Source: Nitrosomonas sp.
GTDB taxonomy: Bacteria; Pseudomonadota; Gammaproteobacteria; Burkholderiales; Nitrosomonadaceae
Assembly (NCBI GenBank): GCA_020852475.1
Contig: JADZAR010000010.1
Coordinates: 1 to 35,718, forward strand
Direction: 5' to 3'
Length of the DNA stretch: 35,718 bases
Shown piece by piece: positions 11,280 to 34,708 of this stretch. Position numbers and translations under genes: made by a program. The notes below the pieces were generated by a model. It was not told where the DNA came from. It searched no databases and saw only the letters and a program-made list of their open reading frames with translations. How positions within the stretch are numbered: the stretch's first letter is position 1; every line of letters begins with the position of its first letter.

Positions 11280-12269
11280 CTACGCCTGATGACCTTCCGC
11301 CATTGCCACCACGACACGGCGCGGCCCCTTGAAAGGTTCACGGGCATGCGCCGTCAGCATGTTGTCCAGCATCAGTACATCGCCTTGCTGCCAGGGAAAG
11401 GTTACTTTGTGGTCATCGAGTACTGCGCGGATTTCATCCAGCAAGGCATCCTCGATCGGTTTGCCGTCACCGTAATAGACATTGCGCGGCAAATCCTCCT
11501 CCGCCACAACATCCAGCAGGGTTTCGCGCAATGCCGGTTCCAACGCGGAAATGTGAAACAGGTGCGCCTGATTGAACCACACCCTATCATGCGTGCACGG
11601 ATGCCGGGCAACCGCCTGGCAGAGCTGGCGCGTGCGCAACTCGCCGTCGGCTTTCCATTCACAGATAATGTCATGCATCCGGCAGTACTGTTCCACCACC
11701 GCGCGATCATCGGTATTGAAAACCTGCGTCCAGGGCACATCCAACCCGCTGCCGTAGTTGCGCACATACATCAGCCCGCGCTCGATAAAGCGGTCGCGGA
11801 TTTCCGGCGCGATGGCGCGGTAGATTTTCCGGCTGTCCGCGATAGGCGTTGCGCCGCCCGATTGCGCGGCGACCGCGCAAAAGAACCATATTTTCATCGG
11901 CCAGTCACGTGTATAGGATTGCTCGTTATGCAGCGGAATCGCCTGATGCGGCGGATATTCGGTTGATGTGTAAATGCCTTCCGTCACTTGAGTGCGCGGC
12001 GTGGAGGCAAACTCATAGCTCAGCAACGGGTGACCGAAACCGACAGCAAACTGCTGAAACGCCTCGACGCCGGCGACGTCAAACCCGCGGAAAAGCAGGC
12101 CGCCGCAATGCAACAAATGGGTTTCGGCAAGCCCCCGCAATTGCGCTGACACTGCCTGCAAGGATATTTTCTTTTTCGGACGCACAACAAGCGGCAGCGC
12201 TTCAAATCCGTCCAGGCAACCGAGTTCAAGCTCCGTTGTTGCTGCGATAAACGTGGTATTCATGTTCAT
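11280..12269 (-). CDS. SyrP-like aspartyl beta-hydroxylase (TauD/Fe-2OG family)
   Basis: This 329-residue protein belongs to the TauD/SyrP family of non-haem iron, 2-oxoglutarate-dependent oxygenases. An HxE-type iron site is visible as PLHNEQSY, and the C-terminal LDNMLTAHAREPFKGPRRVVVAM carries the distal His and the 2-oxoglutarate-binding Arg. SyrP-type enzymes hydroxylate Asp at the beta carbon while it is bound to an NRPS carrier, making the OH-Asp ligand of siderophores such as cupriachelin and serobactin. The frame is open up to 12395, but that would overlap the MbtH gene. I place the start at the ATG at 12269 (MNMNTTF), 32 bp after the mbtH stop; 12263 is also possible. No strong ribosome site is seen, so coupling to mbtH is likely. 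It stands between mbtH and the NRPS. Confidence 0.88.
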   Translation of the reverse strand: MNMNTTFIAATTELELGCLDGFEALPLVVRPKKKISLQAVSAQLRGLAETHLLHCGGLLFRGFDVAGVEAFQQFAVGFGHPLLSYEFASTPRTQVTEGIYTSTEYPPHQAIPLHNEQSYTRDWPMKIWFFCAVAAQSGGATPIADSRKIYRAIAPEIRDRFIERGLMYVRNYGSGLDVPWTQVFNTDDRAVVEQYCRMHDIICEWKADGELRTRQLCQAVARHPCTHDRVWFNQAHLFHISALEPALRETLLDVVAEEDLPRNVYYGDGKPIEDALLDEIRAVLDDHKVTFPWQQGDVLMLDNMLTAHAREPFKGPRRVVVAMAEGHQA

Positions 12270-12301
12270 GCCATCATCAAAATTATTGCCGTCACCGGTC
12301 G

Positions 12302-12526
12302 TCAGTTTTTCCGGGCTTCTTGCTGGCTGTCCATGAACTGACGCAAACTCAAAGGGCGCATGTCCGTCCACACCGTTTCGATGTAATCGAGACATTCTTT
12401 TTTAGTGCCGGTTTTTCCGGCGTCACGCCATCCGGCGGGGATATCCTTGTATTCCGGCCAGATAGAATATTGTTCTTCGTGATTGACGACAACCCGGAAG
12501 ATCATATCTTCACTATCAAAACTCAT
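12302..12526 (-). CDS. MbtH-like NRPS adenylation partner
   Basis: At 74 residues this has the family's usual length. It carries the full signature: [10 protein letters not shown], then [30 protein letters not shown]. MbtH proteins bind A domains and are needed for their folding or activity in the cytoplasm; they have no reaction of their own. A strong GAGGAG ribosome site precedes the ATG. It lies in the predicted receptor-acetyltransferase-mbtH-hydroxylase-NRPS operon, 57 bp after the acetyltransferase gene, and presumably serves one or more of the A domains encoded downstream. Confidence 0.97.
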
Positions 12527-12583: not shown

Positions 12584-13654
12584 TTACAAAAACTGGTCGA
12601 AATAGACTTCCCGCGGCAACACCATCATCGCGGCGCGTTTATGCGGAAAATCGAATTCCTTGATCTTATGAAAGCCTGCCGCCTGCATGTAAGCGATCAT
12701 TTTGGCGTTGTCCGCCCGCGGTTCCGCGACCACATTGCGCGTACGCGGATCATCCAGAAACAGGCAATGCGCCAGTGATTTCAACCAGGCGCTGACGAAA
12801 TGCGGTCCGCGAAAACGTTCTTCACCGACCAGCATATGCAAGCCGCGATCGTAGTCATCAACATTGTAAAAAGGCGCAATACGGTCTTCTTTTGCCCAGT
12901 AGGCTTCGAAATAACCGAATGGCTCGCCGTCAAAGCAACCGATGAGCGGATGCAAATGCGCATCCTGCAGAACGCTTTCGATATAACGCGCATGTTCTGC
13001 CTGATCGCCCTGCATTTCCCAAAAATGGGCGACTCGCGGCGCATTCATCCAGCGATGGAATGTTTCCAGATCGCCGGCGTCTATCGTGCGAAACGATACG
13101 GTTTTATCAAGCGCGCCGATATAGCGCTGATACAGCGTGCCCGGCGGTGTCAACGGCCGCAGCGGATGACGCTTGCCATTCGTGACGGTATAGTACAAGG
13201 GGTAACAAGACGGCTGCCTGGTCATCCACAGTTCCGGTGTTTGCCAGAGTATTGCACGACGGCATTCGAGCCTGTCCGCGCAATCGTCGCGCTGCAACGG
13301 ATAAGCCAGCCCGCGCTGCCACAGCATTCCCGCAAGATCCGGATACGCACTCAAATCCAGTTCAATAGTCTGCATATCAGACGCATCATCAAACAGGCAG
13401 TACAATGCCGCCAACAAATCCCGCAATAATGGCGCCGCGCCGGACGGCGCATGTTTCATCAACCTGAGCGCGAAACGCCCCGTCCCGCCATCACAGCTCA
13501 CCACGAAACGCAATTCGTTACCGTTATCAATCGTCAGGCAGGGCTCAGGCCCCTGCCGCCAATGCAGCCTGCGGCCATCCGGCAAACACCGCTCAATCAA
13601 ATCATTTTGCCCACTGCAGTTTCCGTTCTGCATCAACACACTATTATTTTTCAT
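12584..13654 (-). CDS. IucB/AlcB-type siderophore N-acetyltransferase
   Basis: The C-terminal half (about residues 185-350) matches the GNAT-fold acyltransferases of hydroxamate siderophore pathways. Landmarks are FRTIDAGDLETFHRWMN, VAHFWEMQG, a GLHMLVGEERFRG loop and VVAEPRADNAKMIAYMQAAGF. These enzymes move an acyl group, usually acetyl, from CoA to the N-hydroxy side-chain amine of lysine or ornithine, completing the hydroxamate. The N-terminal half is the variable IucB-like extension. The substrate should come from the flavin monooxygenase at 23019-24374. It starts at ATG 13654 with GGAA about 12 bases before it. It lies 149 bp after the receptor gene. Which acyl group and which amino acid it uses is not decided by sequence alone. 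Confidence 0.85.
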   Translation of the reverse strand: MKNNSVLMQNGNCSGQNDLIERCLPDGRRLHWRQGPEPCLTIDNGNELRFVVSCDGGTGRFALRLMKHAPSGAAPLLRDLLAALYCLFDDASDMQTIELDLSAYPDLAGMLWQRGLAYPLQRDDCADRLECRRAILWQTPELWMTRQPSCYPLYYTVTNGKRHPLRPLTPPGTLYQRYIGALDKTVSFRTIDAGDLETFHRWMNAPRVAHFWEMQGDQAEHARYIESVLQDAHLHPLIGCFDGEPFGYFEAYWAKEDRIAPFYNVDDYDRGLHMLVGEERFRGPHFVSAWLKSLAHCLFLDDPRTRNVVAEPRADNAKMIAYMQAAGFHKIKEFDFPHKRAAMMVLPREVYFDQFL

Positions 13655-13803: not shown

Positions 13804-15996
13804 TTACCAGCCATAGCGCAGGGTTGCAAATACCGTCCGGCGAAGGCCGTAATAGCACGATCCGTTACCGCATGTGGAAACATAAACGTTATCAAATATA
13901 TTGTTCATATTGACGCTGAGCTGGGCGCCCCGCAACCTGGGATGCAAATGGCGCATGTCGTAACGTACCGCCGCGTCGAACAACGTATAGGAAGGCGCTT
14001 TCACGCTGTTGATGATATCGCCGAAATTCGAGCCGATATGCCTGACACCGCCGGCAAGACCCAATCCGGCAAGCGCACCACCGTAAAAAGTATAATCCAC
14101 CCAGGCGGAAACCTGATGCCGCGGCGTCAGCGCAAGCCGGTTGCCCAGCTCATCCGGATTGTTGCTTTTGCTCACGTTTGAATCCGCGAAAGAGTAACTA
14201 CCGATCAGATTCAATCCATCAATGGGGCTCGCCTTGATTTCCGTCTCAATCCCGCGCACGCGCACCTCACCGGTCTGCACAAAGAATCCCGTATGTCCTG
14301 GCGTCAGATCGGGTGTGAGTACATCACGCTGTTTCAGATGATAGGCCGCGACCGAAAACAAGGCGTTGTAGTTGACCGGCTTATATTTGACACCCACCTC
14401 GTATTGACGGCCGGTGGTCGGCTTAAGTGGATCGCCATCGAAAGTAGCACCCGGTGACGGCTGAAAAGATTCCGCATAACTCGCGTAAGGTGCAATGCCA
14501 TTGTCGAACAGATAGGTCAATCCGGTACGGTAAGTAAATGCGCGATCGTTCTGCCGGGTACGGGTTTGTTCGTCAAAAAACATATCATTATCCCGTGTCC
14601 GCGTGTTGGCCCAATCGCTGCGAACACCCAGCGTCAGCAACAGGCGGTCGTATTTCATCTGGTTCTGCGCATAGAGACCTATCTGACTGAGATTCTGGTT
14701 TCTGACGAAGTCGATCATCGGCGGCGCAAAAGACTGTCCATATACCGGTTCAAATGCGTCGATAAACAGAAAATCCTCCGAAAAGCCACGGCGATTCCTG
14801 CCGGACATATGCCGGTAATCGACACCCATCAAAAGATTATGCTTTACCGGCCCCGTATCGAATTTGCCATGTACCCGGCTATCCATCGTAAACGTGCCTG
14901 CATTATCTTTATAGAGCGCAGCCACGCGATCAAGGGTACGGAAATCGATCGGATTACCGTTCTCGTCGAGTGTGAAGCCCAACGAAAAGATATTGGGGTA
15001 ATTACTCTTTACATCAGCGTAGCGCAAATTCTGCTGGAAACTCCAGGCATCATTGAAGCGATGATCAAACGCGTAGCCGACGGTGTACTGATCCCGTGTG
15101 TAGCGGTCATAGCCCGGTTCACCGTGAAACGTGCGGGTTGAGATTCTGCCATTAGGATTCGGCAGCAGCGAGCCTTCCGGCGGCAGAAACATCAGCGAAT
15201 TGCCGGTATCGTCCCGCTGATAATGACTGAGCAGCGTCAGAGTTGTATCCGAGCCCATACGCCAGGTCACGCTGGGCGCAATAAAATAACGATCCAGATG
15301 CGCGTGCTGAATCTGTGTATTGCTGTTACGCACCAATCCGGTCAGCCGGAAAAACAGTTTGCCATCGTTACCGACCGGACCGCCGATATCCAGTCCGCCC
15401 TGAATGCGGTCAAAGCTTCCACCGGTAATGAACAATTCGCGCACCGGCACCGCTGTGGGGCGCTTGCTGGTCATATTGAGCAATCCGCCCGGCGCGCTCA
15501 GTCCGTATACGGTCGCAGAAGGACCTTTCAACACTTCAACACTTTCCAATCCGTAAGGTTCAATGCGGAGATTGGCGTAATTCGATCCCACCAGTCCCAA
15601 TCCGTCCAGAAATTGCGTTGCACTGAAGCCACGGATATTGAAGTAATCGTCCCGCATCGCATCACCAAACATTCCGGTCAACACTCCCGGCGTATAGACT
15701 ACCGCGTCACTGACCGTTTGCGTCAGGCGCGCGTCGAGTTCTGAGCGGGTAATCACATTGACTGTCTGCGGGATCTCAATCAGCGGAATATCCGTTTTGG
15801 TTGCGGTACTGGTCGTTTTTGGCGTAAAGCTTTCCACAACCGATACACGGTCCTTGATGGTGATTTCCGGCAGCTTTGCCGCCCCCTGCGTATTTTTATC
15901 CTGCGATTTCTTTGCCACATCCTCACTCTGCGCGCTTGCCAACCCTGTTACACCAAGCAATAGGATGACCCAGTGCACTGATCGTATCCAATTCAT
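13804..15996 (-). CDS. TonB-dependent siderophore receptor 1
   Basis: A 730-residue outer-membrane receptor for a ferric siderophore, at the usual size. Residues 1-22 are a signal peptide ending GLASAQ. A plug domain follows (IPQTVNVITRSELDARLTQTVSDAV; VLKGPSATVYGLSAPGGLLNMTSKRP), then a 22-strand beta barrel ending in an aromatic residue (RYGW). There is no extra N-terminal STN signalling domain, so it is a plain transporter rather than a FecA/FpvA-type transducer. AAGGA lies 11 bases before the ATG. As first gene of the NRPS operon it most likely takes up the product made here. A Fur-box-like element lies about 175 bases upstream (16168-16202). Confidence 0.95.
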   Translation of the reverse strand: MNWIRSVHWVILLLGVTGLASAQSEDVAKKSQDKNTQGAAKLPEITIKDRVSVVESFTPKTTSTATKTDIPLIEIPQTVNVITRSELDARLTQTVSDAVVYTPGVLTGMFGDAMRDDYFNIRGFSATQFLDGLGLVGSNYANLRIEPYGLESVEVLKGPSATVYGLSAPGGLLNMTSKRPTAVPVRELFITGGSFDRIQGGLDIGGPVGNDGKLFFRLTGLVRNSNTQIQHAHLDRYFIAPSVTWRMGSDTTLTLLSHYQRDDTGNSLMFLPPEGSLLPNPNGRISTRTFHGEPGYDRYTRDQYTVGYAFDHRFNDAWSFQQNLRYADVKSNYPNIFSLGFTLDENGNPIDFRTLDRVAALYKDNAGTFTMDSRVHGKFDTGPVKHNLLMGVDYRHMSGRNRRGFSEDFLFIDAFEPVYGQSFAPPMIDFVRNQNLSQIGLYAQNQMKYDRLLLTLGVRSDWANTRTRDNDMFFDEQTRTRQNDRAFTYRTGLTYLFDNGIAPYASYAESFQPSPGATFDGDPLKPTTGRQYEVGVKYKPVNYNALFSVAAYHLKQRDVLTPDLTPGHTGFFVQTGEVRVRGIETEIKASPIDGLNLIGSYSFADSNVSKSNNPDELGNRLALTPRHQVSAWVDYTFYGGALAGLGLAGGVRHIGSNFGDIINSVKAPSYTLFDAAVRYDMRHLHPRLRGAQLSVNMNNIFDNVYVSTCGNGSCYYGLRRTVFATLRYGW

Positions 15997-16464: not shown

Positions 16465-17460
16465 TTATCGGGTAGCACGATTGCGTTTATCTTTCTCGGT
16501 CGCAATCTCCAGACTCCAACCGCCTTTGATCTCTCCTGCAAACCAGTAGAAATCGTCCGCGACGATCAGTTTCCAGACACCGGTTGGTGAAATGCCGTGC
16601 AGATTGCTCAGTTTCGGTCCGCTCAGCACCCTCTTATAGGTGCTCGGATCCGCTGCCACCACGGTGCCAAGCACGGTAGACTGCGTCAAACCAACAGAAT
16701 TTGTGGAACTATTAAACGTATTGATTCCGACAACGCTACCCGGAAAATGATCGGTATCGGGGAAATTATCGTAATCCGACGGCTTATACGTTCTCAGACT
16801 CTTATCCGTCCAGACACCGACCCATTCATCATAGATGACGTTATACAGCGGATTGTTAATATTACCGCTCAAGCGGCCGTCGTCGCGCACGGAACGCGGC
16901 AGCGGCAGCGGCGCGGAATCATGAAAGCGCCAGTTCAATCCTTCCGCCTTGATCCCCAGAATACCGCCTTCCGGGGTTGCGCCCGCAGAACTGACGTTTG
17001 ACGCCAGCATGACCCAGCTACCGTTCGGTGCAACCAGCATGATATCCACATCATTCAGGTAATCATGATGAATGTCGTGAATGGTAACGCTGATGTCGGA
17101 AATCACCGCATCATCCCGGAAAGCGCCTTCCGGAACCACGATTGTTGACGGGGTAGCCACGACAACCGGAACCTCGGGTGGAAATTGTCGAATTTCGCCG
17201 GCTTGATTAGGCGGCAGCTCCGGATTGTATAAATCCAACAGCGCCGCGCAATCCGGCTGGTCCGGATTAGCACAGGTATCGTTAATTTGAATCCGTGTCG
17301 GATTACTGAACACGCCAGCCTTGCCATACGGCAATGACGGCGGCGCCGCATTAACCCCAAACGGCACAGCCAGCGCGACTGAAAGCACGGCGGAGGCAAT
17401 CATACCCGCCAGTGGCTTTTGGCCCGCCTTTTGCATTACATGAGGCCTAAAGTTTGTCAT
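16465..17460 (-). CDS. Exported protein with proprotein-convertase P-like domain
   Basis: 331 residues. The N-terminus has a long basic stretch then a hydrophobic signal segment (AGMIASAVLSVALAVPFGVNAA), so export is expected. From about residue 95 the pattern VISDISVTIHDIHHDYLNDVDIMLVAPNGSWVMLASNV, a later SPTGVWKLIVADD and GEIKGGWSLEI is typical of P/Homo B jelly-roll domains, which usually follow subtilisin-type proteases. No protease domain is present, so this is a stand-alone P domain of unknown role, perhaps in carbohydrate or surface binding. It starts at ATG 17460 with GGAG eight bases before it. It follows the exported protein at 17584-18153 and may be co-transcribed with it. Confidence 0.75.
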   Translation of the reverse strand: MTNFRPHVMQKAGQKPLAGMIASAVLSVALAVPFGVNAAPPSLPYGKAGVFSNPTRIQINDTCANPDQPDCAALLDLYNPELPPNQAGEIRQFPPEVPVVVATPSTIVVPEGAFRDDAVISDISVTIHDIHHDYLNDVDIMLVAPNGSWVMLASNVSSAGATPEGGILGIKAEGLNWRFHDSAPLPLPRSVRDDGRLSGNINNPLYNVIYDEWVGVWTDKSLRTYKPSDYDNFPDTDHFPGSVVGINTFNSSTNSVGLTQSTVLGTVVAADPSTYKRVLSGPKLSNLHGISPTGVWKLIVADDFYWFAGEIKGGWSLEIATEKDKRNRATR

Positions 17461-17583: not shown

Positions 17584-18153
17584 TTACCAGATGCAGGAAA
17601 TTTCTGTCCATTCGGTATTGGTTATCCGATGTTCCGGATTAATGCGCAGGTCCTCGTCTCTTCTTGAATGTGCGGTTGCCAGCACTTCTTCGCGCTTCAG
17701 CCGTTTGCTGAGACCGGTGATCTTGATCTGCCCTTCATACGCATAAGCAGGTTCAGGATCATCCCCCAGGTCCGCCGTCAGAATCGCGGAGCCTTGTGCA
17801 ACAACCGGTGTTCTTGTGCCGGAAAAACGCTCAATCTTTGCCTGTCCGGTTGACGGCCATGTTCCGCCTTCAAAATCGCCCGGCCCGTCGATCTGGAACA
17901 CCTTGGCGTCGAACTGCACTTCCTGCTCGCTGTTGTTGAGGATATTGAGCGTTACGAAACGCGCCGCCAATTCCAGATCAATAACAGGACCGCCTTCGAC
18001 ACCGCTTAGCGCGATATTTTCGACAGGACCTGTTGAAAGACAGATCGACCGGTTGTTTCTCGGCGAACGCTCGTCATCCGCGATCGCCAGACCTGAAAAA
18101 GCCATGGTCAGAAAACCCAGTCCCAGAATCATTGTTTTTTTTCGTATTTCCAT
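17584..18153 (-). CDS. Exported protein of unknown function, 189 aa
   Basis: I do not recognise a family. It has a clear signal peptide (MILGLGFLTMAFSGLAIADD) and AAGGAG eight bases before ATG 18153. The mature part looks like a compact beta protein. It has a segment about stabilising filaments or accessory domains (ARFVTLNILNNSEQEVQFDAKVFQIDG) and two cysteines (CLSTGP near the N-terminus, SCIW at the extreme C-terminus) that could form a disulphide. It precedes the P-domain gene by 123 bp in the same direction. A Fur-like site (18252-18280) lies about 100 bases upstream, which hints at iron control. A link to the siderophore pathway is inference from position only. Confidence 0.7.
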   Translation of the reverse strand: MEIRKKTMILGLGFLTMAFSGLAIADDERSPRNNRSICLSTGPVENIALSGVEGGPVIDLELAARFVTLNILNNSEQEVQFDAKVFQIDGPGDFEGGTWPSTGQAKIERFSGTRTPVVAQGSAILTADLGDDPEPAYAYEGQIKITGLSKRLKREEVLATAHSRRDEDLRINPEHRITNTEWTEISCIW

Positions 18154-18906: not shown

Positions 18907-20565
18907 ATGAACATCATTCAATTATTATCGCAGCAGCACAGAATACTGCTGATTGCCGTGATGACGCTAAGTATCGCCGCTGCCGGTCTGAGTATCAGCG
19001 TTATTGCATTTATCGATGAGTATCTGATTCCCAATGCAGGCGACGCCACCTTTGTTTTATACGCGCAGTTTTCCGCGCTCATTCTGCTGCTTTTTATTCT
19101 CGGCACCGCATCGCATATTGCGATAACGACGCTCGGACACAAGCTCGTCTATCAGATGCGTCGCACGCTAATCAAGCGTATTCTCGATACCAATGTTGAA
19201 CACCTCGAATCCCTGGGCACCGCAAGACTACTCGCGTCTCTCAACAGCGACACAGCCAGCATCACTTCGGCATTTATTGCCTTGCCGGCCATAATCTACG
19301 GTCTGACATTGAGTATTGCCGGATTTTTTTACCTTGCATGGCTTTCGCTGCCGCTGTTTCAGATTATTTTTGGCTGGCTGGCGCTCACCGTTTTTATCGG
19401 TTGGCTGCTGCTGAAACGGACACACACGGAAGTCATGCACGCACGCGAAGCCGAAGATGCGTTATATCAGGATTATCAGGCGATTCTTGAAGGCCGCAAG
19501 GAACTCAGGCTTAACCGCGCCCGCGCGCAGCGATTCTACGATGAAGAGTTCAGCCGCGATGCCGGCAAAAACCGCGATCATGACATTCGCGCGGATATCT
19601 ACAACGGCGTCAATGACAACTGGGTCAATGCGATGATACTGGGATCCATCGGATTGGTATTCCTGCTGACCTATGGCGCAGCCTGGGCGCCAGCGGAAGT
19701 CGCTGTCACCTTTGCGCTCACCATTCTGTTCCTGCGCACGCCGCTATCCAATCTGGTCATGGCGGCTCCCAGTCTGGTCGCGGGGAATGTTGCGCTGTTA
19801 AAGCTGAGATCGCTTGATCTTGCCGATTATCGCCCGTCATTCAGCGATCCGGACACAGCGCTTGCGGACAACTGGAAAACACTCGACCTGAAAGGTATCT
19901 GCTATCAGTATCAGGCGATTGGCGGCGACTCCGGATTTGCTGTCGGCCCGGTGGATTTAAGCATCCATCGCGGTCAAACAATCTTCATTATTGGCGGCAA
20001 TGGCAGCGGCAAGTCGACATTAATCCGTATTCTGGTGGGTTTATACGACGCGCACGACGGACAGATTCAAATTGGGAATCAGGTGATTGAGCAGACAGCG
20101 CACGCCGCTTTCCGGCAATTATTTTCCACGGTTTTCTCCGATTTTTATCTGTTTCCCGCATTGCTGGGACCGGATGGCCAGCGCGCCGGTCAAGAAGACA
20201 TCAACACCTGGCTGTCTGCGCTGGCAATGACCCATATTGCAACCGTCGATGACAGCAAACTCGCTAATACGCAATTATCGCAGGGACAGCGAAAACGGCT
20301 GGCGCTCCTGGTCGCCATTCTGGAAAAACGACCTATTCTGGTTCTCGATGAATGGGCAGCGGATCAGGACCCACAATTCCGCCGGTTTTTCTACACACAC
20401 CTGCTGCCGGAGCTGAAAAACAGGGGCATCACCATCATTGCCGTCACGCACGATGACCGCTACTTTCACGTCGCCGACCGCATATTGAAAATGGACAACG
20501 GCCAGTTGCAGGAACTGGATCATCAGCACCACGCATGCGATGTGCTGTCAATTACCGGCCGCTGA
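18907..20565 (+). CDS. PvdE/SyrD-type cyclic-peptide ABC exporter
   Basis: 552 residues, the usual length of this half-transporter family in which membrane and ATPase domains are fused. Residues 1-300 hold about six membrane segments (for example LLIAVMTLSIAAAGLSISVIAF, IIFGWLALTVFIGWLLL). The ATPase has Walker A GGNGSGKSTL, the signature LSQGQRKRL, Walker B PILVLDEWAADQDP and a switch His in AVTHDD. Members move lipopeptide or pyoverdine precursors from cytoplasm to periplasm. It opens a three-gene operon with the acylase 10 bp downstream and the hydroxylase, the order expected for a precursor exported before maturation. The ribosome site is weak (AGGA). The likely cargo is the acyl-peptide made by the NRPS at 1-11225. 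Confidence 0.93.
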   Translation: MNIIQLLSQQHRILLIAVMTLSIAAAGLSISVIAFIDEYLIPNAGDATFVLYAQFSALILLLFILGTASHIAITTLGHKLVYQMRRTLIKRILDTNVEHLESLGTARLLASLNSDTASITSAFIALPAIIYGLTLSIAGFFYLAWLSLPLFQIIFGWLALTVFIGWLLLKRTHTEVMHAREAEDALYQDYQAILEGRKELRLNRARAQRFYDEEFSRDAGKNRDHDIRADIYNGVNDNWVNAMILGSIGLVFLLTYGAAWAPAEVAVTFALTILFLRTPLSNLVMAAPSLVAGNVALLKLRSLDLADYRPSFSDPDTALADNWKTLDLKGICYQYQAIGGDSGFAVGPVDLSIHRGQTIFIIGGNGSGKSTLIRILVGLYDAHDGQIQIGNQVIEQTAHAAFRQLFSTVFSDFYLFPALLGPDGQRAGQEDINTWLSALAMTHIATVDDSKLANTQLSQGQRKRLALLVAILEKRPILVLDEWAADQDPQFRRFFYTHLLPELKNRGITIIAVTHDDRYFHVADRILKMDNGQLQELDHQHHACDVLSITGR

Positions 20566-20575
20566 TTAACGCGCG

Positions 20576-23017
20576 ATGTCAATTATTAAAAAAATCAGTT
20601 CAGCGATCTTCGGCGGATCAATTCTGGCAGTCCTTGCCGTTTTGCTCGCGCTGTATGCCTCTTTGCCCCACTATACCGCAACACTTACACTCGAAGGATT
20701 ACAGCATCCGGTGGAAATCCTCCGCGACGAGCAAGCTGTTCCGCATATCTACGCGCATAGCGAGCTGGATGCCTATTATGCCTTAGGGTATACCCATGCC
20801 CAGGACAGGCTCTGGCAGATGGAATTTAATCTGCGGTTCGCCACCGGGACACTCGCGGAATGGTTTGGCGGCAGCATGCTGTCCATTGACCGGTTTCAAC
20901 GCAGGCTGGGCCTGTCTGGCCTGATCAGCCAGGATTTCAATCTGCTGGATACCGACACGCGCGCCATTCTGGCTGCCTATGCCGAAGGGGTGAACGCTTA
21001 TCGCGACGCGATGCCCGTTCCGCCACCGGAGTATCTATTATTAGCTGCATCTCCCCGCGTCTGGCAAGCGCAGGATTCTTTGCTGTTGCTCAAGCAGATG
21101 GCTTGGCAGCTTTCCCGTAATTACTGGGACGAATTACTGCATGTTGTGCTGCGTCAGAATCTATCCGCACAGGAGATGGACGAGCTTCTTCCGGCTTATC
21201 CGGATGATGCGCCGCTACCGCCACTGCCCGACCCTGAGCACCTCTACGCGCAACTTGCCGGACCGGCTCAGGCAATTCTTCATCATGCCGCACTGAAACC
21301 TGCTGCGGGGGCAGGATCGAATAACTGGGCGCTCACCGGAGCGCGCACAATGAGCGGAAAACCGATTCTCGCCAACGATCCGCACCTGAAGCTCACGATT
21401 CCGGCACCCTGGTATCTCGCGCATATTGCCACACCGAATATGAACCTGATTGGTGCGACACTGCCCGGCATACCGGCACTCATATTGGGGCGAAATGACG
21501 CTGTCGCCTGGGCGTTTACCAATACCGGCGCTGACAGTCAGGATTTGTATCTGGAACGATCACCGCCCGAACACCCTGAATATTACGAAACGCCGCATGG
21601 ATTAGCGCGCTATGCAATCCGCACCGAAACGATCAAAGTACGGTTTGCGCAGGATGAGCGCATCACCATCCGTCATAGCCAGCACGGGCCGATCATTTCG
21701 GATAGTGATGCAGAGATTCAATCCATGCTGCCCGACGCCGGAAAATTGTCGCTCGCTTTGAACTGGACAGGTTTCCATCCGGGCGATATTACGCTGCAAT
21801 TTTTTCACAAAGCGGCGCGCGCCGATTCAACCAGCGCGCTGCTGGATGCTGCCCGGGATTATCAGGCGCCGCTGCAGAATATCGTTTACGCGGACCAATC
21901 CGGCGCTATCGGATTCATCGCCGCCGGACGCGCACCGCTACGCGGCGCGGAAAACGACTTGCAGGGACGCGCGCCCGCGCCCGGCTGGTCAGCCGCTTAC
22001 GAATGGTTGGGATTTATTCCTTTTGAACAGTTGCCGCAAGACCATGCGCCGGTTTCTGACGCTATTGTCACGGCCAATTATAAAATCACACCGGAAGATT
22101 ATCCCTATCTGATCGCTGCCGACTGGGCGCCGCCTTACCGTACCGACCGGATTACCGCGCTGCTCGATCAGCAAACCGGTCATCGCCTGATTGACTCTCA
22201 GTCGATTCAACTGGACATCCGCAGCACGGTGGCCGAACGCCTGCTGCCACTGCTGCTGAAAGCACAACCGCACGAGCCGCTCATGCAAGACATCCTGGAA
22301 CGGTTAAAACAATGGGATTTCAATATGCACCGCCGCGCACCCGAACCGCTCATTTTTATTGAATGGACGCGACAACTGACAGCGCTGTTGTATCAGGATA
22401 AATTCAGCAGGCTTAGCGAATTGATCGGCGACGACAATCCGGAATTCCTGATCCGCGTATTGCGTAGCCGCGATGCCCAGTCCCGCTGGTGCGGGCAGAC
22501 AACCACTACTGCGGATCCCTGTACAGCGTTAATCGAAGCTGCGTTGCGAACCGCGATTACGCAATTGCATGATCGCCATGGCGATAATCCGGATGCCTGG
22601 TCCTGGGGAGCAGCGCATATCGCGACAGTGCGTCACGCCCTGCTGGGAAAACTCCCTATTCTGGGGCAGCTCGCAAATTTGACCAAACCAAGAGACGGCG
22701 GACGGGATACCGTCAATTTCAGCGGTTATTTTTATAACGCGGATGATGGCATTTATATCGAAGAAGTTGCACCCAATTTACGTGCGATTTATGACTTGGC
22801 AGATCCGGGAAGCTCTGTTTTTTCGTTAAACAGCGGACAATCCGGCCATTTTCTCTCCCCTTACTACAAGAACCTGACAGCCGGATGGAACGCAGGACAT
22901 TATTTTCCGATCCGCACCGATTACGATGCGGTCAAGCGCAATGCTATCGGCTGGCTGGTCATGAATGCCCCTGATGAACCCCTGACGAACTCCGATCAAT
23001 CCACAGAGAACCATTAA
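20576..23017 (+). CDS. PvdQ-like Ntn-hydrolase acylase (penicillin acylase family)
   Basis: 813 residues with the layout of penicillin/acyl-homoserine-lactone acylases: an N-terminal hydrophobic segment (about residues 12-29), an alpha chain, and an autoprocessing site AGAGSNNWAL. The new N-terminal nucleophile would be Ser248 (codon at 21317). NDPHLKL and LPGIPALILGRND downstream are typical of the beta chain. In Pseudomonas PvdQ removes the fatty acyl group from the pyoverdine precursor in the periplasm. The hydrophobic segment here should likewise send it to the periplasm. It sits 10 bp after the exporter and 1 bp before the hydroxylase, inside a siderophore operon with a FAAL-initiated NRPS, so siderophore deacylation is the best reading. 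Quorum-signal hydrolysis or another amide substrate remains possible. Confidence 0.88.
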   Translation: MSIIKKISSAIFGGSILAVLAVLLALYASLPHYTATLTLEGLQHPVEILRDEQAVPHIYAHSELDAYYALGYTHAQDRLWQMEFNLRFATGTLAEWFGGSMLSIDRFQRRLGLSGLISQDFNLLDTDTRAILAAYAEGVNAYRDAMPVPPPEYLLLAASPRVWQAQDSLLLLKQMAWQLSRNYWDELLHVVLRQNLSAQEMDELLPAYPDDAPLPPLPDPEHLYAQLAGPAQAILHHAALKPAAGAGSNNWALTGARTMSGKPILANDPHLKLTIPAPWYLAHIATPNMNLIGATLPGIPALILGRNDAVAWAFTNTGADSQDLYLERSPPEHPEYYETPHGLARYAIRTETIKVRFAQDERITIRHSQHGPIISDSDAEIQSMLPDAGKLSLALNWTGFHPGDITLQFFHKAARADSTSALLDAARDYQAPLQNIVYADQSGAIGFIAAGRAPLRGAENDLQGRAPAPGWSAAYEWLGFIPFEQLPQDHAPVSDAIVTANYKITPEDYPYLIAADWAPPYRTDRITALLDQQTGHRLIDSQSIQLDIRSTVAERLLPLLLKAQPHEPLMQDILERLKQWDFNMHRRAPEPLIFIEWTRQLTALLYQDKFSRLSELIGDDNPEFLIRVLRSRDAQSRWCGQTTTTADPCTALIEAALRTAITQLHDRHGDNPDAWSWGAAHIATVRHALLGKLPILGQLANLTKPRDGGRDTVNFSGYFYNADDGIYIEEVAPNLRAIYDLADPGSSVFSLNSGQSGHFLSPYYKNLTAGWNAGHYFPIRTDYDAVKRNAIGWLVMNAPDEPLTNSDQSTENH

Positions 23018-23018
23018 C

Positions 23019-24374
23019 ATGAAAGAAACCACAGCTCCACTTAATCTCGCGGGTGTTGGCATTGGCCCCTTCAATCTCAGTCTTGCAGCCTTATTGGCGC
23101 CACTGACTCAAGTCAATAGCTGTTTCTTCGATCGCCGCCCGGCCTTTGCCTGGCATCCCGGCATGATGCTGCCCGGCACGCGCATGCAGACTTCTTTTCT
23201 GAAAGATATGGTTACACCCGTCGACCCCACCAGTCCCTACAGCTTTCTGGCCTATCTGGTCGCGCATGGGCGCTTTTACCGCTTTCTGCACGCGGAATTC
23301 CCGCGTGTACGGCGAGCTGAATTTGCGGACTATTTACGCTGGGTCGCGGAACAGCTGCCGAACCTTGCTTTCAATCAGGACGTCGCCGGGATCGATTTCG
23401 ATCAGCACGGATTTTTACTCAAATTCAACAACGACTACGCCGTCCGTTCCGCAAATCTGGTCATCGGCACCGGCGTAGCGCCCTATATTCCGACCTGGGC
23501 GCAGATTCACATGGGTTCGCGCTGCTTGCACAGCAGTCATTATATGATCACCGATCATCAATTACAGGACCGGCGCGTCGTCATTATCGGCGGCGGACAA
23601 AGCGGCGCTGAAATTTTTCTCGACGTTCTGTCGGAAGCGCACGGAAAGCCGAAAGAAATCATCTGGATCAGCCGTCGCCCCAACCTTGAACCGCTGGATG
23701 AAACCGCGTTTACTAACGAATACTTCACACCGGATTACGTGAAAAATTTCCATCGCCAGCCGGACAGCCGCCGCGACCGCATCGTCCGCACGCAAACGCT
23801 GGCCGGGGATGGCGCCTCCCCGCAAACACTCATCGAAATCTCACAGTATCTTTATGAAAATGATTTTCTGCGACACAAGGACAGCAACCATCAATATCGT
23901 ATCATGACCAACCGCGAGGTGCGGCGCATGACCCGGAATTCGACGGACTGGCAGCTGCACATGCACAATCGGTTCGATGAATCCGACGAAAGTGTCTCTG
24001 CCGATGTAGTCATACTGGCCACCGGATACAGACAGGCCGTTCCCGATTGTCTTGCACCGCTGACCGGACGATTCGAACGCGACAGCGAAAATAATATAGT
24101 GCTGACCAAAGATTATCAGGCGTTGTGGGACGGGCCCGCAATCCACCGGATTTACATGATGAATGCCGGGCTGCGAACACACGGCATCGCCGACCCGCAA
24201 TTGAGTCTTGCGGCCTGGCGGGCGGCTGTCATCGTCAATAGCCTTCTCGATCAGAAAATTTATTGCACTGACCCGGCGCCATCACCCCTGTACTGGAGCG
24301 AAGCCAGTAACGGCTATGACGAGGAAAACCATGCCACGCCATCGACATTTTCCGCGTGCGCCGGACGCGAATAA
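23019..24374 (+). CDS. L-lysine/L-ornithine N-monooxygenase (siderophore hydroxylase)
   Basis: 451 residues, the usual length. It has the FAD motif GVGIGPFNLSLAAL, the FLKDMVTPVDPTSPYSFLAYL segment, the NADPH-binding GGGQSGAEIFLD and the C-terminal ATGYR. Such enzymes use FAD, NADPH and O2 to hydroxylate the side-chain amine of ornithine or lysine, the first step to a hydroxamate. The stretch WHPGMMLPGTRMQTSFLKD with YRFL and EFADYLRWVAE reads closer to lysine-type IucD/AlcA than to ornithine-type PvdA, so substrate is open. The start ATG lies one base after the acylase stop, implying translational coupling. Its partner would be the acetyltransferase at 12584-13654. Confidence 0.92.
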   Translation: MKETTAPLNLAGVGIGPFNLSLAALLAPLTQVNSCFFDRRPAFAWHPGMMLPGTRMQTSFLKDMVTPVDPTSPYSFLAYLVAHGRFYRFLHAEFPRVRRAEFADYLRWVAEQLPNLAFNQDVAGIDFDQHGFLLKFNNDYAVRSANLVIGTGVAPYIPTWAQIHMGSRCLHSSHYMITDHQLQDRRVVIIGGGQSGAEIFLDVLSEAHGKPKEIIWISRRPNLEPLDETAFTNEYFTPDYVKNFHRQPDSRRDRIVRTQTLAGDGASPQTLIEISQYLYENDFLRHKDSNHQYRIMTNREVRRMTRNSTDWQLHMHNRFDESDESVSADVVILATGYRQAVPDCLAPLTGRFERDSENNIVLTKDYQALWDGPAIHRIYMMNAGLRTHGIADPQLSLAAWRAAVIVNSLLDQKIYCTDPAPSPLYWSEASNGYDEENHATPSTFSACAGRE

Positions 24375-24518: not shown

Positions 24519-25913
24519 TCAGGCATCCCCACCCAACGCCAGATAAAGATTAATCCGATTGCTCAGTAACTGCCGGATTACCGACAAATGCGCCGTCTGC
24601 GCATTCAAGGTACTGCGATAGCTATCCAGCAATGTAAGAATTTCAATGCTGCCGTTGCGGTAAGAATGTACCGCCAGCTTCTGGCTGGATTCAGTATATT
24701 CAACGGCTTTTTTCAATGCGGCCTCCTGCTGTCGCAGCCACTCTTCAGCAGCCAGCGCCTGCTCGACTTCGCGGAAGGCATTTAAAGCGGTATTCTTATA
24801 GTGATTCAAGGCTTCTTCCGCGCGCGCCTGATTGCGGAAGATTTCGCCCTCGATGCGCCAGCCGGTAAACAAAGGCTGCATTAATCCCGCAAACACATTC
24901 CAGGCCGCTGCTCTGGGATCAACCAGTTCGGTCAAATCTACGCTGCGGCTACCGCCCGCCGCAGTCAGGGTGATGCGCGGCAAGCGCAATTTCTGCGCGC
25001 TGACGGCACGCAAATCCGCCGCCTGCAGACGACTGAATGCCGCCGCCAGGTCCGGTCTTCGCTCCAGCAGCTCGGCAGGCAAACCGGCCGGTAGCGCAGC
25101 TGGCAGTGACGGCAACGCATCGGTAGCCAGATCCTCGCCGGACGGATATCGTCCCAGCAGAATCTCCAGGCGGCGCGCCAGCGCCTGTTCTCGATTGCGC
25201 ACCTCCTGCAATTGCGCTGCAGCCGTGGTCAAGTCATTCATCGCCAGACGCAAATCCAGCCCGCGCACCAGACCGCGCTGAAAGCGGCCGCGTACCAGTT
25301 CCGTGATAATTGTCCTGTCCCTGATCGATTGTTCGACAATCGCCGCCTGAAGCTTTGCTTCGATCAATTCAAAATAAATTTGCGCGACCCGCGCCGCCAG
25401 CGACAGCCGCGCACCATGAAAATCACTTTGACTGGCCTGCGCCTCTGTCAGTGATGCCTGATACTGGTCACGGATCCGTCCCCAGACATCCACTTCCCAG
25501 CTGACACCAAACAATGCTTCGAACGCACTGAATCGCGATGAACCGAAGCCGGCTTCGCGAACCTGCACCTGCTGATGATCCGCCATGAAAGAGAGTTGCG
25601 GCCAGCGCGGTGAACCATCTATACGGGCCTGCGCGATCACCGCCTCCACTCGCGCCGCAGCCGCTTTCAACTCATAGTTGTTCGCTAGGGCGGCATCGAC
25701 AAGCGCCACCAGTCTGCTGTCATCGAATATCGTTGTCCATCGAGATAGCACCGGTGTGGCCTGCCAGTCGTTATTTCCCCAGTGCAGTGGAACTGCATCA
25801 CCCGCATCCTGCGCATCGCGCTGAGGCAAAGCGCCGCATCCCGTCAGCATAATGAACAGCAGAATACCGCCATAATGCTTTAAATCCGCGCCGCGGCGCC
25901 TGATTCCGCTCAT
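24519..25913 (-). CDS. NodT/OprM-family outer-membrane efflux lipoprotein
   Basis: About 464 residues. The lipobox LTGC near residue 26 marks a lipoprotein. Two repeated outer-membrane efflux domains follow, with coiled-coil-like Ala/Gln-rich helices (ALANNYELKAAAARVEAVIAQA; RRPDLAAAFSRLQAADLRAV; FREVEQALAAEEWLRQQEAALKKAVEYTES). These proteins trimerise as channels across the outer membrane with RND or ABC pumps. In Pseudomonas, PvdR-PvdT-OpmQ secretes pyoverdine; no pump or adaptor partner is encoded in this window, so export of the siderophore is only inference. I choose ATG 25913; a GTG at 25925 in the same frame is possible, and neither has a good ribosome site. The strand is opposite to the exporter operon and convergent with it. 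Confidence 0.85.
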   Translation of the reverse strand: MSGIRRRGADLKHYGGILLFIMLTGCGALPQRDAQDAGDAVPLHWGNNDWQATPVLSRWTTIFDDSRLVALVDAALANNYELKAAAARVEAVIAQARIDGSPRWPQLSFMADHQQVQVREAGFGSSRFSAFEALFGVSWEVDVWGRIRDQYQASLTEAQASQSDFHGARLSLAARVAQIYFELIEAKLQAAIVEQSIRDRTIITELVRGRFQRGLVRGLDLRLAMNDLTTAAAQLQEVRNREQALARRLEILLGRYPSGEDLATDALPSLPAALPAGLPAELLERRPDLAAAFSRLQAADLRAVSAQKLRLPRITLTAAGGSRSVDLTELVDPRAAAWNVFAGLMQPLFTGWRIEGEIFRNQARAEEALNHYKNTALNAFREVEQALAAEEWLRQQEAALKKAVEYTESSQKLAVHSYRNGSIEILTLLDSYRSTLNAQTAHLSVIRQLLSNRINLYLALGGDA

Positions 25914-25925
25914 CCGGTTTAACAC

Positions 25926-26075: not shown

Positions 26076-28310
26076 TTAGAATCTGAATTTTAATGTACCC
26101 AGAACTGTTCGCTCCAGTCCCGGATAAGCCCGCCAGCCGGGATCATTGTAGGACAGATAATTGTTATTGAATATATTGCTGGCATTCATGATAAATATCC
26201 ATGGCCCATAATCATAACGTAGCATGGCATCAAATAACGTGTACGATGCGGTTGTGCTGGTATTTTCAAGATCATTGAAAATCCTGCCCACGTAACGCAC
26301 GCCGCCGCCGATTCCAAACCCTTTCATCCAATCGGGAACCCCCAGATTGCCAAAAGAATAATCCAGCCATCCTGACGCCATCACATTAGGCACCTGAATC
26401 GGCATTTTTCCATCATCGATATCCGTACTTTTAGTCACAGTCACGCCGTGGTAGGTAAACGTTCCAATCATATTCAAACCGGGCAGCAGTTCAGCTCTTG
26501 CTTCCACCTCCACACCGCGCGACCCGACTTCTCCAGTCTGCCTGCTGCGGAATTGCGGATCGTTGGGATCAGGTGTCGGCACGTTTGTCTTGGTCAAATC
26601 AAAAAACGCGACGGAATACAAACTTCTGCCATTCAGCGGCTGGTATTTCACACCCACTTCAAACTGTTCGCCGCGCGTCGGTTTAAATGCCTTGTCGCTG
26701 GAATCGAATCCCGGTATCGGCAGAAATGACTGTGAATAGCTCGCATAAGGCGCGATACCATTGGAAAACAGATAGGTCAACCCGGCTCGCCCGGTAAATG
26801 CATCATCCTTGTTGAGCGTTCTCGAATCGGTCAAACGATCAGTATCCCGTGTATGAATCCTGTCATAGCGCCCGCTCAAAGTCAGAATCCAGTTTTCACC
26901 ATATCTGATCTGATCCTGTATATACCCACCCAGTTGATCAATTCTTTGTTTTGCATTCGAATCCAGCAAACTCGGTTTTGGAATGGGTATGCCATAGCGC
27001 GGATTAAATACGTCGATGCCAGGTGCATCGCCTGAAAAAAACCTGAGCGATGCATTGGTCACGTTCCAGTCAACACCTGCCAAAATCGTATGCTGTAACG
27101 GGCCGGTATTGATTTTGGCCTGAACATGCGAATCAAGCACGGTTTGCGTTAAACGTTCTTTTGTGGAAATGGCCGTGCGTTGCATCAGTGTGGGCAATTC
27201 AGTACTGAAATCCGCGCGAAACATGTCATTGAAATCACCGTCTTGCTGCATGTAGCGGAAATTCTGGCGCACGGTAAAAATTTCGTTGAAATGATGCTCG
27301 AGCTGATAACTGAAAGAAGACTGGTTAGTGGCGTATTTAACGAACTTCGAATCGGTCTGCACCACATTTGTCCGGCTGCCGTCAGGCGCGTTCAAATAAA
27401 ACGGTGAAGCTTCCGCCCGGTTGTTCAGAATCTCGCCCATCAGCGTTACCGTTGTATCAACTGTTGGACGCCAGATTACCGATGGTGCAATGTAAAATCG
27501 CCGCAGCCCGGCACGATCTCCGCCGGTATTCGGATATTTGACCTGCGTGTCGGAATCCAGTCCGAGCGTCACGAGACGGAACATCAAATTTCCATCCTTA
27601 CTGACAGCACCAAGATCGGCAGCGATACGTTTCCGATCGAAATTACCGTATTGAAATTCGATCTCGCGAATCGGAACGGGACTGGGACGCTTGGTCACGC
27701 GGTTAACAATCCCCCCGGCATCACCACGCCCGAATGTAACCGACGCGGGCCCCCGCAACACATCAATACGCTCCAGGCCATAAGTCTCGGTGATAAACGA
27801 GTTAAAATACAATCCCTGCCCGGCCATACTCAATCCATCGCGAAACAACGATGTGGTCAATCCCTGAAAACCGCGTAACAGCAGATATTCATAGCCTCGC
27901 CCTTCAAAACCCCACTGATCCACGACGACGCCAGGTACATACCGCAGCGCTTCGCTCATATCCTGCGCACCACGCGCGTCAAGCTCATTACGGGTAACAA
28001 CTGAGATTGATTGCGGCACCTCAATCAGTGGCGTATTGGTTTTCGTGCTCACGCTGCTCTTATTGGCTACGTATCCGCTGGTCGCGACACCCTTGACAAC
28101 CATCGATGGCAGCACCATAGTATTCGACAGATCAGCTATAGTTTGACCTGCCGCCGGACTTGCCGTAGTGGACTGATTTTCGGTCTCTCCGGATTTCCCT
28201 GTCTTCGGTGCGCTGATCTGCTGCGCTTGGACAGGAAGCACAAAAATCAACGTACCAAGACACAGTATTAATTTCTTTAAAATCGCTGTTTTCCTCTTAC
28301 TATCTCTCAT
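26076..28310 (-). CDS. TonB-dependent siderophore receptor 2
   Basis: 744 residues. Signal peptide ends near residue 30 (FVLPVQAQQ). A long linker leads to a TonB-box-like VLPSMVVKG, then the plug (PQSISVVTRNELDARGAQDMSEALRYVPGVVVDQWG; VLRGPASVTFGRGDAGGIVNRVTKRPSP) and the barrel, ending GTLKFRF. It lacks an STN signalling domain. It shares the overall pattern of receptor 1 but is clearly diverged, so it may take up the same compound in another form or a foreign siderophore. It starts at ATG 28310, with AGGA about 12 bases before. A Fur-like element lies about 90 bases upstream (28401-28439). Confidence 0.95.
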   Translation of the reverse strand: MRDSKRKTAILKKLILCLGTLIFVLPVQAQQISAPKTGKSGETENQSTTASPAAGQTIADLSNTMVLPSMVVKGVATSGYVANKSSVSTKTNTPLIEVPQSISVVTRNELDARGAQDMSEALRYVPGVVVDQWGFEGRGYEYLLLRGFQGLTTSLFRDGLSMAGQGLYFNSFITETYGLERIDVLRGPASVTFGRGDAGGIVNRVTKRPSPVPIREIEFQYGNFDRKRIAADLGAVSKDGNLMFRLVTLGLDSDTQVKYPNTGGDRAGLRRFYIAPSVIWRPTVDTTVTLMGEILNNRAEASPFYLNAPDGSRTNVVQTDSKFVKYATNQSSFSYQLEHHFNEIFTVRQNFRYMQQDGDFNDMFRADFSTELPTLMQRTAISTKERLTQTVLDSHVQAKINTGPLQHTILAGVDWNVTNASLRFFSGDAPGIDVFNPRYGIPIPKPSLLDSNAKQRIDQLGGYIQDQIRYGENWILTLSGRYDRIHTRDTDRLTDSRTLNKDDAFTGRAGLTYLFSNGIAPYASYSQSFLPIPGFDSSDKAFKPTRGEQFEVGVKYQPLNGRSLYSVAFFDLTKTNVPTPDPNDPQFRSRQTGEVGSRGVEVEARAELLPGLNMIGTFTYHGVTVTKSTDIDDGKMPIQVPNVMASGWLDYSFGNLGVPDWMKGFGIGGGVRYVGRIFNDLENTSTTASYTLFDAMLRYDYGPWIFIMNASNIFNNNYLSYNDPGWRAYPGLERTVLGTLKFRF

Positions 28311-29356: not shown

Positions 29357-29385
29357 CGGAAGAAAATGGATCAGTACCCGTAGTC

Positions 29386-29901: not shown

Positions 29902-29933
29902 ACACAATAAACACAATAAACACAATAAACACA
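29902..29933 (+). repeat. Tandem repeat ACACAATAA x3.6 in csgE-csgF gap
   Basis: Three perfect nine-base copies and a partial fourth directly after the csgE stop codon, ending beside the AAGGA ribosome site of csgF. Repeat-number change would alter the csgE-csgF spacing without touching a reading frame. Confidence 0.85.
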
Positions 29934-29947
29934 AGGATAAAGACAAG

Positions 29948-30355: not shown

Positions 30356-30356
30356 G

Positions 30357-32289: not shown

Positions 32290-32494
32290 CATGCCCCCCC
32301 CCACCGCCCCACATTTCCGCTGCAATTATCATCAGTTAACTTAACTAAAAGGAACACCGAGCGCAACTAAACACAACAATGCTATTAAATTTTTAATAGC
32401 AGCATGTTAAGGCTATATCGATGATCATGAAATATGCCTGGCATACTGTCTATCGCTGCAATGAATTTCAAACACAACCCAAAGGAGTTTTAAA
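32290..32494 (+). other. csgB-csgA spacer with C9 tract and A/T hairpin
   Basis: A run of nine C (32294-32302) follows the csgB stop by four bases. A perfect ten-base inverted repeat TGCTATTAAA/TTTAATAGCA lies at 32380-32401. AAAGGAG precedes csgA. The hairpin could be a transcript-processing or attenuation site; nothing else is seen. Confidence 0.55.
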
Positions 32495-33421: not shown

Positions 33422-33475
33422 ACCGGAGAATTCCGTTTGACCGTTAAGTTTTTACGGTTAGCTGATTATGCTTAT

Positions 33476-33994: not shown

Positions 33995-34708
33995 TCACGC
34001 TGCTGCCTGACCTTCCAGCAAACGTTTCACCAACACCTGAAGAAACCATGCCTCTGATTGACGCAGAAAAAAATGCCCGCCATCGAACCAGTCGAGTGTG
34101 AATAACTGACTGCTTTCCTGCCGCCACGCATCCAGACTGTCCGCATTGATCGCATCCGTTTTTCCGCCGAAACAATGAATGGGCAAAGCAAGTGGTGCTT
34201 GCCGCGTATATTGAAAACTTTCACACACCCGGTAATCGGCGCGCAACAAATCGAGTGTCATCGCCAGAAGCTCCGGGTTGTTGAATACTTCCTCCGGTGT
34301 CCCGCCCTGCTGACTCAGATCGGCGATCAAATCCGCTTCGGTACGGATTTTGCTGTAACACCCGCTATCCTGGCGCGATGGAGCGGCACACCCGGCAATC
34401 AGCAACGCCACCGGCGACACCGCATGTATCTGCCGCAACTGTTGTGTAACGCCAAATGCCAGCAAAGCGCCCATGCTGTGACCAAACACAGCATAGTTTT
34501 GCGGTGCTGACCGCGCGATTTCATCACTCAAGAGATTGGTTAATGCCGGGTAATTGCTCCGAGCAGTTTCGTTCAGGCGCATGCCGCGGCCCGGCAGTTC
34601 GATTGGAACAATCTTAATCCGCGCAGGCACCAGCCTTCTCCAACGCAGATAGATTGTCGCGCTGGCGCCTGCACAAGGCAGGCAATACAGCGTTAACTGA
34701 ACAGACAT
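33995..34708 (-). CDS. Type II thioesterase (GrsT-like) for NRPS
   Basis: 237 residues, the usual length. Alpha/beta hydrolase with GHSMG (nucleophile Ser), Asp in GGKTDAI and His in DGGHFFL, the catalytic triad in order. The N-terminal LYCLPCAGASATIYLRW and PIELPGRG are classical for type II thioesterases. These remove wrong or stalled acyl groups from carrier domains in the cytoplasm and so keep NRPSs active. It is convergent with the curli operon and 46 bp after the DUF6746-like gene, so the two may be one unit. Its most likely client is the NRPS at 1-11225, over 20 kb away. Confidence 0.9.
   Translation of the reverse strand: MSVQLTLYCLPCAGASATIYLRWRRLVPARIKIVPIELPGRGMRLNETARSNYPALTNLLSDEIARSAPQNYAVFGHSMGALLAFGVTQQLRQIHAVSPVALLIAGCAAPSRQDSGCYSKIRTEADLIADLSQQGGTPEEVFNNPELLAMTLDLLRADYRVCESFQYTRQAPLALPIHCFGGKTDAINADSLDAWRQESSQLFTLDWFDGGHFFLRQSEAWFLQVLVKRLLEGQAAA

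Follow-up and report, generated by a model that had tools for sequence, protein, structure and literature searches.

An exporter-acylase-hydroxylase gene group in a Nitrosomonas siderophore locus points to a probable variant of pyoverdine-type acylate-export-deacylate logic

Pyoverdine, which is matured in fluorescent pseudomonads through PvdL-PvdE-PvdQ and secreted through PvdRT-OpmQ, provides the closest described counterpart of a group of genes on a contig of Nitrosomonas sp. (JADZAR010000010.1, positions 1 to 35,718; the whole of these 35,718 nucleotides is called the window). The genes in question, at 18907-24374, encode a peptide-export ABC transporter, an N-terminal nucleophile (Ntn) acylase and an amine N-hydroxylase, in a locus that also contains a nonribosomal peptide synthetase (NRPS) headed by a fatty-acyl-AMP ligase (FAAL) domain. 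As pyoverdine maturation is presented in the excerpts of PMC6206403, it shares with this locus the FAAL-type start, the peptide-export ABC transporter, the Ntn acylase, the N-hydroxylase and a TonB receptor. The differences are several: the acylase is of another clade, the exporter also passes a YojI-like model, the genome has no member of the PvdM family and resistance-nodulation-division (RND) pump genes are present. Whereas PvdL makes acyl-Glu-Tyr-Dab, the synthetase here has the code DAEYTGGIT with an epimerisation (E) domain first, Asp second and no aromatic code. A second likeness is to cupriachelin, whose cluster contains FAAL, TauD-type, hydroxamate and TonB receptor genes. Cupriachelins are lipopeptides with beta-hydroxyaspartate according to the excerpted description, and would therefore retain their fatty acid; the FAAL start, a TauD-type enzyme, hydroxamate genes and TonB receptors recur in the Nitrosomonas locus. 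A third is GdnD of Schlegelella brevitalea, likewise an Ntn acylase, which was shown to deacylate nonribosomal lipopeptides, the glidonins; it differs in being encoded 1,002,342 bp from its own cluster, in being called PvdQ-like and in that the available parts of the source (PMC10587159) do not present its substrates as siderophores. The Nitrosomonas locus is best read as following the acylate-export-deacylate logic of pyoverdine in a new form while standing outside the pyoverdine pathway itself, with acylases that were separately recruited and with no periplasmic dye chemistry.

The exporter, acylase and hydroxylase genes proposed in a sequence-only reading of the window are real open reading frames (ORFs) on the + strand, all with family matches and with intergenic gaps of 10 and 1 bases. 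The exporter reaches 392.1 bits with TIGR01194, a model of cyclic peptide exporters that takes in PvdE (cut-off 286.2), and is safely a member of the peptide-exporter subfamily that includes PvdE. Its identity as PvdE itself is less secure: it also passes the YojI-like equivalog NF007813 (680.7 bits, cut-off 604), and YojI-annotated genes, 45-47% identical to it, occur among its plasmid matches. The proposed label "PvdE-type" stands for the subfamily and is not confirmed as a strict PvdE assignment. PvdE itself is grouped with transporters of modified cyclic peptides in the excerpts of PMC6206403. The hydroxylase matches PF13434 at 373.7 bits, and its nearer solved relatives are 6xbb ("monooxigenase", 246 bits), the putrescine N-hydroxylase 7us3 (238 bits) and the desferrioxamine lysine 6-monooxygenase 5o8p (220 bits), ahead of the L-ornithine 5-monooxygenase 3s5w (PvdA; 138 bits). 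Together with an acetyltransferase of PF13523 this lysine/ornithine monooxygenase forms the IucD/IucB-like pair that had been recognised earlier. The acylase scores 689 bits with PF01804 (Penicil_amidase, cut-off 21.3). Its residue 248 aligns with residue 1 of the beta chain of solved Ntn acylases, and S248, H270, N501 and R522 are conserved in all 58 aligned acylase rows, which agrees with the proposal of Ser248 as the putative autoprocessing site. The N-terminus contains a predicted helix (residues 2-28) and a hydrophobic stretch, features that would fit an exported or anchored enzyme.

The assignment of this acylase to PvdQ was not upheld. With the PvdQ model NF051460 it reaches 53.5 bits, far under the curated cut-off of 950, over a best stretch of residues 243-443. 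The closest solved structure is a D-succinylase from Cupriavidus (7ea4, 7eby; 28% identity), an enzyme with a small-molecule substrate by its name, and cephalosporin acylases are also near. We know of no D-succinylase with such a gene context. The phylogeny against PvdQ and N-acylhomoserine lactone (AHL) acylases was a quick tree of 89 rows, drawn midpoint, in which PvdQ was represented by proxies and not by its own sequence; the NF051460 scores of these four rows, 547, 504, 376 and 302 bits, stay under the cut-off, and for one of the four the match to PvdQ structures reaches 408 bits. The four PvdQ/AHL-acylase-like rows form one side of the tree with three acylases of a second locus type described below (support 100), and the window acylase lies on the opposite side, amid general penicillin acylases. 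The score and the tree position outside the PvdQ/AHL side together rule out that the enzyme is PvdQ. Its place among enzymes of the penicillin acylase family, an outcome named in the refuting condition of the sequence-only reading, lowers the case for its being PvdQ, not for its working like PvdQ. The breadth of that family, with a D-succinylase and cephalosporin acylases as nearest solved structures, would suit an enzyme that degrades AHLs, beta-lactams or N-acyl amino acids and stands in the locus by chance or through co-regulation. This is quite improbable, given that the same acylase-hydroxylase pair and NRPS type occur in a methanotroph of another order and that FAAL-NRPS loci are repeatedly accompanied by acylases, drawn from three clades. 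As regards other acylases of the genus, a PF01804 match is present in 83 of 85 genomes, mostly as one copy of about 440-485 bits; four copies of that kind, including one of the window genome (G000:C184, L002), form a clade of their own in the tree. A further acylase (662 bits with PF01804) lies beside an AMP-ligase-like gene in a genome with no exporter match (G008:C100, L089).

The first NRPS supplies the acylating step that the logic demands. Its initial domain has 18 solved matches at E <= 1e-40; the 15 highest-scoring are fatty-acyl-AMP ligases, acyl-CoA synthases or synthase ligase domains, the remainder being two amino-acid adenylation proteins and one McyG; the proposed FAAL-initiated NRPS was thereby confirmed. 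The window corresponds to contig 10 of a draft assembly of 2.97 Mb, in which additional NRPS pieces are found on contigs C131, C212 and C213. The same locus type, called type A here, lies on one contig with three NRPS genes in another genome of the genus (G445). The first of these genes shares 76.8% identity with the window NRPS, the second 54.5% with the start of C212, and the third 78-79% with C213 and C131. A plasmid of Methylomagnum ishizawai has three NRPS genes with identical module order. For the specificity codes, the column of adenylation (A) domain position 278 was set against Asp and Ser codes and substrates were called by similarity: DLTKVGHVG was assigned to Asp, DVWHISLID presumably to Ser and DILQLGVIW presumably to Gly, and the ornithine-like code DAEYTGGIT occurs twice. 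In the excerpts of PMC12283262, the ornithine code DGECTGGITK resembles DAEYTGGIT, and the arginine pattern is matched by DAEDIGAVT and DAEDVGAVT, missed at one position by DAEDTGAIT and at two by the G445 code DAEDNGTVT. A text search of the papers available for DAEYTGG and DAEDTGA found no occurrence. The predicted product of the three synthetases, as read from these codes and domains, is an acylated octapeptide. Its first residue, D-X1 (ornithine-like code), would carry the acyl group and be followed by (beta-hydroxy)Asp and Ser; a basic-type D-residue would stand at position 4, Gly or Ser at position 5 and a D-residue of arginine-type code at position 6, ahead of a second D-X1 and an arginine-like last residue. 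As the window genome's own assembly is broken, the G445 and Methylomagnum orthologs were used to read residues 3 and 5 and the epimerisation at position 4. X1 may be N-hydroxy-ornithine or N-hydroxy-lysine, since the hydroxylase is nearer to lysine/diamine enzymes than to 3s5w.

The same codes bear on the chromophore. No aromatic code appears among 14 A-domain codes (six of the window genome and eight of G445) or among the eight of Methylomagnum, so that no Glu-Tyr-Dab precursor of a chromophore is expected. As evidence, this outweighs the lack of pvdM, pvdN, pvdO and pvdP in a window of 36 kb, which the sequence-only reading had pointed out. No gene resembling these four was found among 19 window proteins in a Pfam scan that omitted two small ORFs (33437-33931 and 34755-35159), and every listed ORF of at least 90 amino acids in G445 161890-209415 is, by position, a counterpart of a window gene or an NRPS. 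PF01244, presumably the PvdM family, has no match in the window organism's draft genome (control positive in 4 of 14 genomes). For pvdN, pvdO and pvdP, none is present among the window proteins scanned or in the G445 list, and no genome-wide search was made.

Conservation of the locus gives further support to the logic. In G445 the hydroxylase is 91%, the acylase 75% and the exporter about 84-85% identical to those of the window, and its locus also holds the two small proteins, receptor 1, the acetyltransferase, MbtH and TauD. The acylase and hydroxylase genes are adjacent in all three type A loci found (window, G445 and Methylomagnum), and on the Methylomagnum plasmid the pair lies beside the same NRPS type as in the window. 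The Methylomagnum exporter, 55% identical and the best plasmid match, adjoins a receptor 52.6% identical to receptor 1. By contrast, of the best 80 acylase relatives, taken from at least 585 candidates in genome_contigs, none has a hydroxylase, acetyltransferase, TauD, exporter or NRPS match at 1e-20 in the flanks retrieved and one shows a weak ligase match (45 of the 80 loci span at least 22 kb), so that the type A acylase was seemingly recruited into the locus out of a family that usually lacks such neighbours. A contrasting case is plasmid pAcX50f of Azotobacter chroococcum, where a locus that opens with an exporter of the same kind (51.6%) further comprises MbtH, two NRPS genes, a receptor, an acetyltransferase and a hydroxylase. 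There, FAAL queries reach no more than 92 bits, a score typical of ordinary A domains, and three acylase queries found no match at 1e-6 in 218715-290000; a locus that lacks both FAAL and acylase fits the idea that the acylase goes together with the FAAL.

The association extends to other loci of the genus. In a survey of its 85 genomes the exporter query found 39 places in 34 genomes, which are not independent events given that the genomes are related. A PF01804 gene lies within 20 kb of the exporter in 26 of the 39 places and within 1 kb in eight. Type A is present in two genomes of the genus. The commoner type B (27 of 85 genomes, counted from hydroxylase matches, with hydroxylases 31-34% identical to that of the window) has in genome G028 a FAAL-NRPS with a polyketide synthase (PKS) module, an exporter, an acetyltransferase, a hydroxylase, a receptor, an outer-membrane factor, membrane fusion protein and RND set (OMF-MFP-RND) and an acylase. 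Type C (G016) has a FAAL-NRPS, a receptor, sulfotransferases, adjoining exporter and acylase genes and an OMF-MFP-RND set. The FAAL was verified in one type B and one type C genome, several other contigs starting or stopping within the NRPS. The exporter subfamily is paired with acylases of two other clades at these two other FAAL-NRPS loci; as the acylases of types A, B and C occupy three distinct regions of the tree, the locus types share their components but not the origin of the acylase. Type B was also considered as a true pyoverdine cluster and was rejected on its PKS module and on the interval between NRPS and exporter in G028, which encodes a di-haem oxidoreductase, an imelysin and a PepSY protein; its acylase was rejected as PvdQ at 169 bits with the PvdQ model, under the cut-off. 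The type B exporter of G028 scores 397.9 bits with NF007813, under the cut-off of 604. The G028 acylase (L224, 12296-14686) has a lipobox-like N-terminus, with cephalosporin acylases as nearest solved structures. One type C exporter adjoins only an acylase fragment (G459:C1:610927-613347, L253; query residues 557-769), as if decayed. The type C NRPS loci L142 and L143 carry sulfotransferase genes, and one NRPS of G024 terminates in a reductase domain; no siderophore of this kind is known to us.

Taken together, the gene packing, the conservation in three genomes, the predicted peptide and the recurrence in two other NRPS locus types support the logic of FAAL, exporter and acylase without a chromophore, which was the substance of the earlier proposal, the PvdQ family label being its mistaken part. 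The locus probably makes a non-fluorescent peptide siderophore with hydroxamate and beta-hydroxyaspartate groups by an acylate-export-deacylate route. The FAAL would load a fatty acid and NRPS 1-3 would assemble the peptide, with the N-hydroxylase and the IucB-like enzyme forming the hydroxamate and the TauD enzyme hydroxylating Asp. The TIGR01194 exporter would then carry the acylated precursor over the inner membrane, where the acylase, probably anchored by its N-terminal helix, would self-cleave at Ser248 and cut off the tail in the periplasm; the OMF-MFP-RND pump would secrete the free peptide and the TonB receptors would re-import it. The genes, their order and conservation, the catalytic residues, the predicted fold and the module order are observed. 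What is inferred is the substrate, the membrane side, the order of steps, the deacylation, the secretion by the RND pump and every chemical step.

Deacylation might also come later. Acylases acting on the finished lipopeptide are reported for marinobactin-type siderophores, and other bacteria secrete beta-hydroxyaspartate lipopeptide siderophores, such as cupriachelin in its excerpted description; trimming after secretion or re-uptake, the second option of the sequence-only reading, would serve as a switch between membrane-bound and soluble forms or for iron release. We consider this unlikely here, because the acylase gene is flanked by the exporter gene on one side and a biosynthesis gene on the other, and adjoins the exporter in types A and C (the eight places within 1 kb), a position that points to a step preceding secretion. 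Self-protection, in which the acylase detoxifies a membrane-active acylated cationic peptide, would draw on the basic, arginine-like codes of several modules, on the detoxification or self-resistance proposed for the acylases GdnD and Tem25 in the excerpts of PMC10587159 and on the appearance of Nitrosomonas in the list of the 20 genera richest in clusters for cationic nonribosomal peptides in those of PMC6095874. The latter survey, as excerpted, excluded clusters with lysine/ornithine N-monooxygenases, so the present locus would not be counted. As the whole explanation self-protection is most improbable, the hydroxylase, TauD and two siderophore receptors marking a siderophore locus, but it is compatible with the acylate-export-deacylate route and not exclusive of it.

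Several observations weigh against that route. The assembly line of the window genome is split over four contigs, its continuity being inferred from G445, and the Methylomagnum exporter lies about 93 kb from the NRPS genes on the same plasmid. At thirteen of the 39 places the exporter lacks a PF01804 neighbour within 20 kb: in nine none is present on the contig, and four are in single-contig genomes with a distant nearest copy. One genome (G474) has the type B exporter, hydroxylase and acylase together with no NRPS match in the 80 kb read, and the Azotobacter contrast is one case. The acylase subfamily itself is widespread.

The remaining genes of the window are listed with the central three in Table 1. 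The two proteins between receptor 1 and the exporter, with no known siderophore role, are 83% (16465..17460) and 78% (17584..18153) identical in G445. The efflux protein is likely the partner of MFP and RND genes on contig C131. It is 72-75% identical to genes of type B siderophore loci, as are receptor 2 (61-62%) and the thioesterase (67%), and beside the type A locus of G445 there was no match to the efflux protein and no close receptor 2; parts of two loci may be combined in the window. A curli-type set (a LuxR-type regulator, CsgE, CsgF, CsgG and two curlin-repeat proteins) occupies 28697-33421, between receptor 2 and the thioesterase. A 19-base Fur-box consensus had no match at up to three mismatches, a null that says little since 0.00 matches were expected by chance.

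Table 1. Coordinates of genes in the window and the basis of each assignment.
Feature	Coordinates	Strand	Basis
NRPS 1, truncated by contig start: FAAL-T-C-A(DAEYTGGIT)-T-E-C-A(Asp, DLTKVGHVG)-T-C-	3..11225	-	domain matches, codes
TauD-type dioxygenase, probably Asp beta-hydroxylase; true start possibly further in	11280..12395	-	Pfam; 65% Methylomagnum, 79% G445
MbtH-like protein; overlaps start of long TauD ORF	12302..12526	-	97% in G445
IucB-like acetyltransferase	12584..13654	-	PF13523
TonB-dependent siderophore receptor 1	13804..15996	-	TIGR01783; 86% in G445
P-domain protein, kept beside exporter in G445	16465..17460	-	Pfam, G445 ortholog
Small protein, no Pfam match at 0.001, conserved in G445	17584..18153	-	G445 ortholog
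TIGR01194 peptide-export ABC transporter, also past equivalog NF007813 (YojI-like)	18907..20565	+	profile scores, orthologs
PF01804 Ntn-hydrolase acylase, predicted N-terminal helix 2-28, nucleophile Ser248	20576..23017	+	profiles, alignments, structure matches, tree
PF13434 amine N-hydroxylase, lysine/ornithine type	23019..24374	+	Pfam, solved-structure matches
Outer-membrane efflux protein, NodT family	24519..25925	-	profile matches
TonB-dependent siderophore receptor 2	26076..28310	-	TIGR01783
Type II thioesterase	33995..34708	-	PF00975; 67% to type B locus of G028

In the titles and abstract openings surveyed on acylases in such clusters and on NRPS siderophores of Nitrosomonas, no match to this locus was found. 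According to the excerpts of a review (PMC9693385), there is no in vitro study of siderophore production in any ammonia oxidiser, N. europaea has no siderophore system of its own and aerobactin genes are present in two other ammonia oxidisers. A search for the AmoA (ammonia monooxygenase) family PF02461 was positive in five of ten genomes of the genus, one complete genome having three copies, and in none of five others of the order; the family was not found in the window organism's draft genome. On this evidence the genus is probably Nitrosomonas and the organism probably an ammonia oxidiser. A siderophore-type N-hydroxylase occurs in 36 of the 85 genomes (E <= 1e-30), and self-made siderophores may therefore be common in the genus. 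It is quite possible, although we propose it tentatively, that acylate-export-deacylate arose at least three times in the genus, for three FAAL-NRPS products and with acylases of different clades, the tail being a general tag for export or self-protection and not peculiar to the dye chemistry of pyoverdine. Having the parts for export and deacylation with no periplasmic chromophore step expected, the locus separates the fatty tail from dye chemistry, and would allow ideas on the role of the tail in transport and protection to be tested.

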